32,244 nucleotides of DNA from Mycoplasmopsis felifaucium ATCC 43428. GTDB lineage: Bacteria; Bacillota_I; Bacilli_A; Mycoplasmatales; Metamycoplasmataceae. The notes below the pieces were generated by a model that was not told where the DNA came from, made no database searches, and was given only the letters and a program-made list of their open reading frames with translations. The translations under genes and the position numbers were made by a program. How positions within the stretch are numbered: the stretch's first letter is position 1; each line of letters starts with the position of its first letter. Shown piece by piece: positions 27,948 through 31,800 of the stretch. Where the stretch lies: assembly GCF_000687775.1 (NCBI RefSeq), contig NZ_JHXS01000011.1, positions 1 to 32,244 on the forward strand. Reading direction: 5' to 3'.

Positions 27948-28208
27948 ATGAGAACAATGTTAGATATTACAATTGACTACACACTTAAAAATTGTTCAAA
28001 CAATAATTATGTAGAGTTCAACGAAATTTTTGATGCAGTTGAAAATGAATTAAGATACAAATGAGAAAAAGAAGCAGAAGAAAAAGAAGTTGATTATAGC
28101 AAAATCCGTATTAATAAAATTGGTGAATTATATCGTTTGTTAACGGTAGATTCAAGATTTGAAAGAAATTCTGATGGTTTATGAACCACAAGAGAAGGTT
28201 TTGAATAA
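27948..28208 (+). CDS. rpoE: DNA-directed RNA polymerase delta subunit (86 aa, HARE-HTH domain)
   Basis: A small accessory subunit of Gram-positive RNA polymerase that promotes recycling and selectivity of the enzyme. Only the N-terminal winged-helix (HARE-HTH) domain is present: MRTMLDITIDY at the start, YVEFNEIFDAVENELRYKW, and the diagnostic IRINKIGELYRLLTVDSRF and RNSDGLWTTREG at the end. The acidic C-terminal tail of Bacillus delta is missing, apart from a short run of Glu in the middle. Two Trp codons are TGA, which breaks the gene under the standard code. TAGGAGG precedes the ATG. The stop is 1 nt before the fba ATG, an association I have seen in other mycoplasmas. Confidence 0.9.
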
Positions 28209-28209
28209 G

Positions 28210-29085
28210 ATGATAATAACTAATAATTTAGTTAACGCCAAAGAACTTGTAAATAAAGCAAAAAATGCAAAATACGCTGTGCCACATATAAATATTAATA
28301 GCTTACTATGAGCAAAAAATGTTCTTGAAGCGGCTCAAGAAGAAAATAGTCCTGTTATTATTGGAGCTAGCGTTGGGGCTATAAAGTATATGGGTGGTTT
28401 TAGTACTGTTGCTAATGGGGTAATCTCTCTAGTTAATGATTTAAAAATTACTGTTCCAGTTGCTCTACATTTAGACCACGGAAATTATGATTCTTGTTTT
28501 AAAGCTATTGATGCTGGTTTTACATCGGTAATGTTTGACGGTTCATCAATGACTTTTGATGAAAACTACAGTAAAACAGCCGAAATAGTAAAATATGCAA
28601 AAGATTATAATGTAAGTGTTGAAGCAGAAGTCGGATCTATTGGCGGCCAAGAAGATGATATGATCTTTATTGGAGAGTTAGCAAGTTCAGAAGAAGCTTT
28701 AAAAATGCAAAATTTAGGTATTGATTTCTTAGCTGCAGGAATTGGCAACATTCACGGGCCTTATCCTGAAAATTGAAAATCATTAAATTTTGATAAATTG
28801 AAAGAGCTTAATAAGGCTTTAAACATTGGATTAGTATTACATGGTGGAAGTGGAATACCAAAGGATCAAATTAAAAAAGCGATTAAAAATGGTGTTGCTA
28901 AAATTAATGTAAACACAGAATTACAACTGTCTTTTTGCGATGGATTAAAAGAATTCATTCTTTCTGGCAAAGTGAATGAAGGAAAGAATTACGACCCACG
29001 TAAATTATTAAAAGACGGTTTTGATAACATTAAAAAAACTGTTAAAGAAATAATCCACGAGTTTGGTTCATCTAACAAGATCTAA
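28210..29085 (+). CDS. fba: Class II fructose-bisphosphate aldolase (291 aa)
   Basis: A zinc enzyme that cleaves fructose 1,6-bisphosphate to the two triose phosphates in glycolysis. The N-terminus includes YAVPHININ. The metal ligands are in ALHLDHGNY, VEAEVGSIGGQEDD, GIGNIHGPYP and LVLHGGSGIP, and the phosphate-binding end is GVAKINVNTELQ. Two TGA codons are read as Trp (LL-W-AKN and PEN-W-KSL). The gene starts 1 nt after rpoE, with no ribosome site of its own, so it is probably translationally coupled. The 3' end (SNKI-stop) is nearly repeated 60 bp downstream. Confidence 0.96.
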
Positions 29086-29090
29086 TTTTA
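29070..29090 (+). repeat. Direct repeat, copy 1 (3' end of fba)
   Basis: ATCTAACAAGATCTAATTT here covers the last codons and stop of fba. Copy 2 starts at 29130 and differs by one inserted T in its first 19 bases. Each copy is itself made of two ATCTAA units. Confidence 0.75.
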
Positions 29091-29093
29091 TGG

Positions 29094-29111
29094 AGAAAGT
29101 ATATACTTTCT
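29094..29111 (+). terminator. Terminator of rpoE-fba
   Basis: AGAAAGTATATACTTTCT (29094-29111) is a perfect palindrome, 9 nt after the fba stop, followed by TCATTTTATTTTTTTCT. Confidence 0.75.
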
Positions 29112-29129
29112 TCATTTTATTTTTTTCTT

Positions 29130-29150
29130 ATCTAATCAAGATCTAATTTA
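29130..29150 (+). repeat. Direct repeat, copy 2 (duplicate of the fba 3' end)
   Basis: ATCTAATCAAGATCTAATTT repeats the end of fba with one extra T. It lies between the fba terminator and the nuclease gene, 60 bp from copy 1. Confidence 0.75.
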
Positions 29151-29161
29151 AATAATAAAAT

Positions 29162-29740
29162 ATGTTCAAAATATTATTAAATAACAGTTTAATTACGACA
29201 GCTGCATTTAGTATAGTTTCTGTTTCTTGTTTAAACAAGAATGATTCTTACTTTAAAACTTATGAAATTAAGTCTAATATAAATGTTATTGATGGCGATA
29301 CTATATCTTTTTGAGAAAACGGACAAATAGAATCATTAAGAATATTTGGCATAGATTGCCCAGAAACAAAGAAAAATAATTATCAAAAACTTGCAAAATT
29401 TGAGAATCTTTTTGCAAATAAAGCAAAAGCATTTTTGAATAATCAAATTTTACGTAAAAATCTGTTTTATAGATATATAACAACAGACAAATATAGTCGT
29501 AAAGTTGGTCAATTATTTTATTATTACAATAATGAGCAGATAGATGTAGGATTAGAAATTGTCAGAAATGGACTGGCAAGAGTTAAATATATAAACATAG
29601 ATAAGAAAGATATTTTTACCGTAAGGGATGCAGACTTAAAAGAATATTTTTATAAGTTAAAAGAAAATGAAAATTTTGCAAAGAGAAACAATCTTAACAT
29701 ATGAAGTTATAATCAATCCTTAATTTTTAGCAAACAATAA
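29162..29740 (+). CDS. Thermonuclease-like lipoprotein, staphylococcal nuclease family (192 aa)
   Basis: A probable surface-exposed nuclease that degrades host DNA/RNA to supply nucleotides; mycoplasmas cannot make these de novo. The signal peptide ends in the lipobox VSC (Cys23). The SNase fold shows NVIDGDTISF (metal-binding Asp residues), SLRIFGIDCPETKK (catalytic Arg, Asp and Glu; the usual Thr is Cys) and TTDKYSRKVGQLF (second catalytic Arg), then VRNGLARVKY. All core catalytic residues seem present. TGA is Trp twice. No ribosome site is seen before the ATG, and the start could lie further along only by losing the signal peptide. It converges with the restriction-enzyme gene. Confidence 0.88.
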
Positions 29741-29774
29741 ACTATAAAAATAATTATTTTAATGATGATAAAAA

Positions 29775-29793
29775 AATGCCAAAATTAGGCATT
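29775..29793 (-). terminator. Terminator of the restriction-modification pair
   Basis: AATGCC (29775-29780) and GGCATT (29788-29793) pair around a 7-nt loop, with TTTTTTTATC following on the minus strand. It lies 33 nt after the restriction gene. A palindrome AAAATAATTATTTT at 29747-29760 may be a weak terminator for the nuclease gene on the other strand. Confidence 0.75.
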
Positions 29794-29826
29794 AAAGTTT
29801 TAGATTTCAAAATCCAAATAATTGAG

Positions 29827-30803
29827 TTATTTGATAAAGTCTTTAATTAATTTTTGGAAGCCTTGACTATTTAAAAAATAGTTATGCTTATTTTTATCTA
29901 AGATATTCACTAAGTTTGTATATTGTGAAATAACTTTAGGTTCTTTTTTAGCTGAACTAAATTTTCTAAAATAGTTACCTGCTAAACAAGAAACATAATG
30001 TACATTTTTGGATACTTCTGCAAAACTAATAAATCGTATTAATTCATTTATTTCTGCATTTTGTGAACCACCAGATCCATTAGTTAATTTGTGTTCAACA
30101 ATAAAAATTTCATTATTGATTTTTATTAAAAAGTCAGGATTCTTAAAATCATTTATGGATCTGAATTCAAATTTGACATTATTAACTTCTAAAAAATTGT
30201 TAAAAATATCTAATTGACCCTTATCAGGCAGAATATAACATAATTTTGTTGACAATAGTGTTTGAATGGAATTAGCTTTTTGGAAGTCTAACGATACTAA
30301 AAAACTTTCAACTTTTTCAATTCCAGTTTTTCCTTTTCTCCTACTTGAAGACATATCGGAATTAACTTGTAAAATTAGATCACTATATCCGTGAGATAAA
30401 TATAAATCATGTCTATAAGCTATATAATAATCAAGAAATTGTTTCATAATATTTCGCTTATCTAGTTGATTCATATTATTCTTTTCATTCATATATGTAT
30501 TGTATGAATATCCTAATACTTGTAGATAAGCACAAAAGGCAGAATAATTGATCATTGGAGTATTTTCAACTAAGTTAATGATTTTAACGATAATTTTTTC
30601 AGAAACAGCCGAATCAATCATTTGATCTAAACAAAGCGTTTTATAGGTGCTAATATATTCAATAAGTTTATGGTTTACTTTCATCAATTCTGTAGAATTT
30701 AAAAATTTATTTTCAGTTATAACCAAAACACCTTTAGAATTTTCTATATCAAAAAGTTGATCGCTATTTTCAAACTAAAATCAAAATACCATCTGTTATT
30801 CAT
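29827..30803 (-). pseudogene. Type II restriction endonuclease gene with an apparent 5' frameshift
   Basis: The body of the gene is one open frame from 30774 to the TAA at 29827-29829, 315 residues, with a PD-(D/E)xK nuclease motif: NPDFLIK, then FIVEHKL, with PD and ExK 12 residues apart. It contains no Trp. The best start is ATG 30803, overlapping the methyltransferase stop. This reads MNNRWYFDFS and then runs out of frame to a stop at 30744. The nuclease frame itself has a TAG at 30775-30777, so no ATG leads into it until inside the gene. One extra T in the TTT at 30772-30774 would join the two halves into a 325-residue protein (…DFSFENSDQLFD…). A TTG at 30726 could give a 299-residue product lacking the first 26 residues. 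Activity is therefore doubtful. The recognition site cannot be read from the sequence. Confidence 0.75.
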
Positions 30804-31800
30804 TTTCAAAATCCTTTTTAGAGTTAACAGTTATATAGGCTTGTTCCATTATTGCTCTTGCTAATTTAAAATCTAGCCTTCGTCTCCTGATGCCTTTTTT
30901 AGTATTACCTTTAAAAGGAGTTAATAAAATATCGTCAGATTCTCCTCTCAAGTGAAATAAAATTTTGTTGCATTCATCTATAAAACAGGCTTTTTTATTA
31001 TTTGGTATATTTATATTTATCAACGAAAAATGTCTTGAAGTATGCTTTATTTTATTACTTCAATCATATTTAAAATTTTCTTTATAGTCAAAATGAATAA
31101 ATTTTTTATCGTCAGTACTATCAACAGCTCTTAAACCGAGTCATCCACTAGAATCATTAAAAATTATTCTCACAGAATTATTTGGATTAATTCTTAAATT
31201 AAAAATTTCTTTTAGTGTCCCTACCAATAAGTCATTTTTGTAAATTTTTATATCAGTAAATTCTTTAGGTATATTATCAAAACATAATACACATACAGGA
31301 TTTTCAGTATCTAAGAATGGGTTTTCTTCTAAAACAGTAACAGAGGAAAGCAAATGTTTTTTCTTGAATGAAGAATTAATAAATGACTCAGGAACAATAA
31401 CAACTACATAGTCTTGAGCTTCTAACATTTTATCAAGTGCAATTAGATATAAGTCATCATATAATGAATTGTTGAAATATTTAGATAAATCTAACTTTTT
31501 TCTTGTTGCAGATTGCTTCGCAAGATATGGAGGATTGGTTATTATAAACGCATTATCAATATGTGGAATTTTAACGAGAGAATCATTTTTATTTCACTGT
31601 AGGCTTTCATCAATATCTAGGCCAATAATATTTTTGATATTTAAACTTTTTTGACATACATTTAATAAATCACCACCGCCAGCAAAAGGATCATAAGCGA
31701 TACTGCAGTTTGACCTTTTAATAAAATCAATAATTTGTGGTTTCAACCAAACAGCTTCTTTTGTAAAAAATTGTCCTAACGTCACTTTTTTAACAGACAT
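30796..31800 (-). CDS. Type II DNA adenine-N6 methyltransferase (334 aa)
   Basis: It probably methylates adenine in the recognition sequence of the adjacent nuclease and so protects the chromosome. The order of motifs is that of the gamma class (M.TaqI-like): GQFFTK (residues 9-14, motif X), DPFAGGGDLL (37-46, SAM-binding motif I) and TNPPYLAKQ (NPPY at 89-92, catalytic motif IV). The C-terminal half should hold the target recognition domain, with IRRRRLDFKLARAIMEQA near the end. Three TGA codons are Trp. AGGTAGG precedes the ATG. The gene is intact and its stop overlaps the first ATG of the nuclease gene. Confidence 0.88.

Follow-up and report, generated by a model that had tools for sequence, protein, structure and literature searches.

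The analysed window was contig C11 in its entirety (32,244 bases), part of a draft genome of 765 kb in 37 contigs, which was translated with genetic code 4 and has Mycoplasmopsis primatum, M. gallinarum and M. iners as congeners. On the minus strand, a 5S rRNA gene (32063-31958) was found to be followed by a gene for a predicted N6-adenine DNA methyltransferase (30796..31800, 334 aa) and by a nuclease gene. A terminator-like hairpin with a T tail was present 3′ of the nuclease gene (29775..29793, minus strand), and three such terminator-like sites were found in the region against 0.6 expected from shuffles. The pair has fructose-bisphosphate aldolase and thermonuclease-lipoprotein genes as neighbours (window 27948-31800), and the methyltransferase of G095 (L019) was found to sit between the same two genes without a nuclease.

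The methyltransferase was found to occupy a full-length open reading frame (31800-30796) containing motif I (DPFAGGGD) and motif IV (NPPY), in agreement with the first-pass annotation, which had described it as intact. It scored 27.6 bits against the Pfam profile Eco57I (PF07669; cut-off 25.3), was called MTase_II by PADLOC, and shared 57-67% identity, from end to end, with the methyltransferases that accompany intact nucleases. From the profile match and the NPPY motif, the protein is predicted to be an Eco57I-type N6-adenine methyltransferase.

The start codon of the nuclease gene (ATG 30803-30801) shares the last 8 nt of the methyltransferase reading frame and is preceded, at about 8 nt, by a ribosome-site-like AAAGGA stretch. 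The two genes were found side by side in eleven loci with an intact nuclease, and the pair that had been proposed from the overlap of ATG 30803 with the methyltransferase stop is conserved there. The locus is read as a type II restriction-modification pair, the methyltransferase followed by the nuclease, encoded by overlapping genes.

The nuclease gene was found to be divided between two reading frames, as had been claimed earlier. The zero frame opens at ATG 30803 with MNNRWYFDFS, reads MNNRWYFDFSLKIAINFLI over 19 codons and ends at TAG 30746-30744 (30744..30803, minus strand). The body of the nuclease lies in the shifted frame, which is open from 30774 to 29827 (315 codons, minus strand) directly behind TAG 30777-30775; when these bases were shuffled 2000 times, an open frame of this length never arose. 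The body contains the predicted nuclease site PD-(X)12-EXK (P213-D214 ... E227-H-K229 in P0001 numbering), of which the P, D, E and K residues were invariant in 12 homologues, and the PD-ExK site named by the first-pass annotation was thereby upheld. The motif, together with the mixed alpha/beta core and fold modelled for an intact homologue, places the protein among the PD-(D/E)XK nucleases.

The homologues were collected by a family search, after which genome contigs were scanned with the methyltransferase alignment (17 loci); a scan of the contigs with a single nuclease sequence gave no loci, and no nuclease homologues were found in plasmids, phages or viral contigs. Eleven complete homologues, each beside the same methyltransferase, were found to start with the equivalent of MNNRWYFDFS and to continue in a single uninterrupted frame, with nearly invariant N3 and S10 residues that are both present in the zero frame of the window. 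When a decapeptide profile was built from 13 homologous N-termini, the window sequence being left out, this decapeptide scored best among the 613 ATG decapeptides of the window (9.8 bits, the next 4.2), and the N-terminal match to the intact homologues marks ATG 30803 as the true 5′ end of the gene. The first-pass annotation had pointed to homologues with a start corresponding to TTG 30726 and no N-terminal segment as evidence that would speak against its reading, and none was found among the 11 complete homologues.

The distance from the start codon to the conserved INYS residues was 84 codons in 6 of the 11 intact homologues and one base shorter in the window, and, measured against every intact homologue, the nuclease gene therefore carries a net -1 frameshift. 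Any net -1 change between the two stop codons, the body-frame TAG 30777-30775 and the zero-frame TAG 30746-30744, rejoins the frames, so that the lesion lies within the interval 30747..30774 (minus strand); homology most likely narrows it to about codons 10-13. The runs within the interval are TTT, AAAA and TTTTT, the T5 being the longest. The loss of one T from TTT 30774-30772 had been proposed earlier; the net -1 shift near codon 10 is retained from that proposal, but the TTT is not a unique position, and the adjacent AAAA is an equally good candidate for the lost base. The open, complete nuclease gene of a functional type II system is absent here owing to the frameshift, and the locus was therefore classed as a broken system and not as a working one.

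Reversible slippage in the T-run had also been suggested, and repeat tracts are known to switch restriction-modification genes in mycoplasmas (PMC9465063; PMC10305163). However, the runs at the lesion comprise just 3-5 nt and are ordinary among the 387 A/T runs of at least 5 nt in the window; no long simple-sequence tract of the kind that marks a phase-variable contingency locus was found. Runs of such length occur everywhere in the genome, and reversible slippage is therefore not indicated. Programmed -1 frameshifting was rejected, since no canonical slippery heptamer was read in frame at the lesion and the predicted RNA fold there was no better than that of shuffles (z 0.25). The homologues, moreover, are read without any shift, and both ON/OFF switching by slippage at a short A/T run and a programmed shift are considered very improbable.

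The body of the nuclease was found to be otherwise undecayed. Of 38 positions that do not vary in the other sequences, it was changed at only 1, much as its intact peers are, and the catalytic residues were kept; in the insertion-split copy of M. gallinarum, 17 of 65 invariant positions were changed, as counted in a smaller alignment. The undecayed body implies that the lesion is recent or that a product is still made from the gene, and a shortened working protein or an assembly error would also fit it.

A shortened protein would arise if a ribosome that ends at TAG 30744 restarted at TTG 30726 to give an active or weakly active product of 299 residues (29830..30726, minus strand), which would lack the first 26 residues and with them the N-terminal helix. 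The TTG lies 18 nt past the stop of the short frame, a spacing that suits reinitiation, and is preceded by AAAGGTG; the body is without visible decay, and L006 shows poor conservation of the N-terminal segment. The AAAGGTG letters, however, merely encode K-G-V and are identical in the intact L003, the N-terminal segment is kept in all homologues, among which N3 and S10 hardly vary, and the helix at the N-terminus was modelled with confidence (pLDDT about 85) for an intact homologue. The restart is accordingly regarded as unlikely. Still less probable is that the shifted gene represents a tolerated, 'attenuated' state, in which reinitiation at TTG 30726 would yield a little shortened nuclease and a mild restriction would be held under selection.

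If the shift were an assembly or sequencing error, the nuclease gene of the strain would be intact and the system would cut normally. The undecayed body and the 37-contig state of the draft are in favour of such an error, and the quality of the assembly was checked by comparing 629 kb of the window genome (G000) with the reading frames of G095, by which about 256 kb of coding sequence was aligned. Besides the nuclease gene, one credible frameshift was found in G000, in a gene read from its sequence as CorC/HlyC-like (L050 15407-16548, G000 C3), whereas the reciprocal check gave about 10 in G095. This second frameshift, an apparent -1 shift at an AAAA run as at one of the candidate positions in the nuclease gene, may mark a real pseudogene or an assembly error, and it counts to that extent in favour of an error at the nuclease gene as well. 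Another frameshift candidate, L118, was dropped because it reads a different gene in antisense, and Pfam scans of the window revealed no truncation of a housekeeping gene. From the observed rate, about 0.4% of genes as long as that of the nuclease would be expected to contain an error; only short runs occur at the lesion, and losses of the nuclease are frequent in the family. As the assembly is clean by this measure, an assembly error is judged unlikely, though slightly less so than the restart at TTG 30726.

The reading preferred here, and held to be probable, is that of a type II pair struck by a recent net -1 shift. The frameshift, around codons 10-13, would allow only 19 codons of the nuclease gene to be translated and leave the upstream methyltransferase untouched. 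The cell would then most likely still methylate its own sites and no longer cut unmethylated DNA, and the methyltransferase, with its sites methylated but not cut, would act as a solitary enzyme.

In many relatives with a retained methyltransferase, the nuclease is repeatedly broken or missing. In M. gallinarum, the homologous nuclease gene was found to be split after about codon 80-85 by an ICE-like insertion of about 25 kb (L039 6001-7317, L007 1501-2235 and L046-L047; G085 C6:126574-153638), the methyltransferase being intact; as read at its junctions, the insertion is bounded by an 8-bp target duplication ATACTAAA and has the ends GGAAG...CTTCC. A metagenome-assembled genome labelled Lachnospiraceae (L037 4778-5750) was found to contain a nuclease homologue with two stop codons and a frameshift next to an intact methyltransferase, and L045 contained fragments of both genes. 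The methyltransferase was present and the nuclease was not detected in G095, G088 (M. iners), G018, L031, L032, L038, L040 and L044. A tree of 22 methyltransferases, many branches of which are weak, required a separate change for each of three broken cases. Shorter proteins, about 200-250 aa in length and with weak similarity to the C-terminal region of the nuclease, were found in L008, L009 and L010, where they adjoin divergently oriented methyltransferase homologues of 33-36% identity and constitute a related restriction-modification group.

The type of the enzyme was approached through profiles and a structural model. Two of the nuclease homologues matched the Tsp45I profile (PF06300), of which only L030 exceeded the curated cut-off (26.5 against 25 bits), and L010 nearly reached it; the window protein and most homologues were unmatched by this profile. 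The matches fall on the same C-terminal PD-ExK region, with the profile covered in its C-terminal part only. The structure predicted for an intact homologue (mean pLDDT 75, pTM 0.58) was matched best by BstEII (PDB 9ibq; Z 9.6, with 255 residues or almost the entire chain covered), at an rmsd of 9.5 Å and 12% identity, with no match in sequence. BstEII was the sole chain with Z of at least 8, and the fold matches included several restriction nucleases; a sequence search of the PDB gave no match, and Foldseek by itself yielded no hit with E below 0.001. The cleavage sites of Tsp45I and BstEII are GTSAC and GGTNACC, respectively, so that a recognition site with a GTNAC core (Tsp45I/BstEII type) is a reasonable guess, which the model and the profile suggest as a lead only. 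In G000 (observed/expected 0.80; L048-L063, L104-L120) and in G095 (0.77; L064-L103), GTNAC was found to be rarer than every other palindrome of its class, which was not so in the genomes with an intact pair (G027 1.07, G093 0.97, G033 0.88).

The loss of restriction with retention of modification is already known in mycoplasmas, and the case in the window is well supported but ordinary. In Mycoplasma agalactiae, an indel within a mid-gene poly(A) region disrupted hsdR (PMC9465063); that locus likewise has its restriction gene hit by a small indel and its methylation retained, but belongs to a Type I system. Solitary Type II methyltransferases have been described in mycoplasmas such as Metamycoplasma hominis (PMC10305163), and these are likewise without a working nuclease, whereas the window still contains a nearly intact nuclease gene. 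The methyltransferase of the window is most likely on its way to becoming a solitary enzyme and caught early in that course, the nuclease having apparently been broken by a single small lesion without further decay. Together with its relatives, in which intact, mobile-element-split, decayed and absent nucleases were found, it forms a small series on the ways in which mycoplasmas lose restriction and keep modification, and this series bears on the openness of mycoplasma genomes to foreign DNA.
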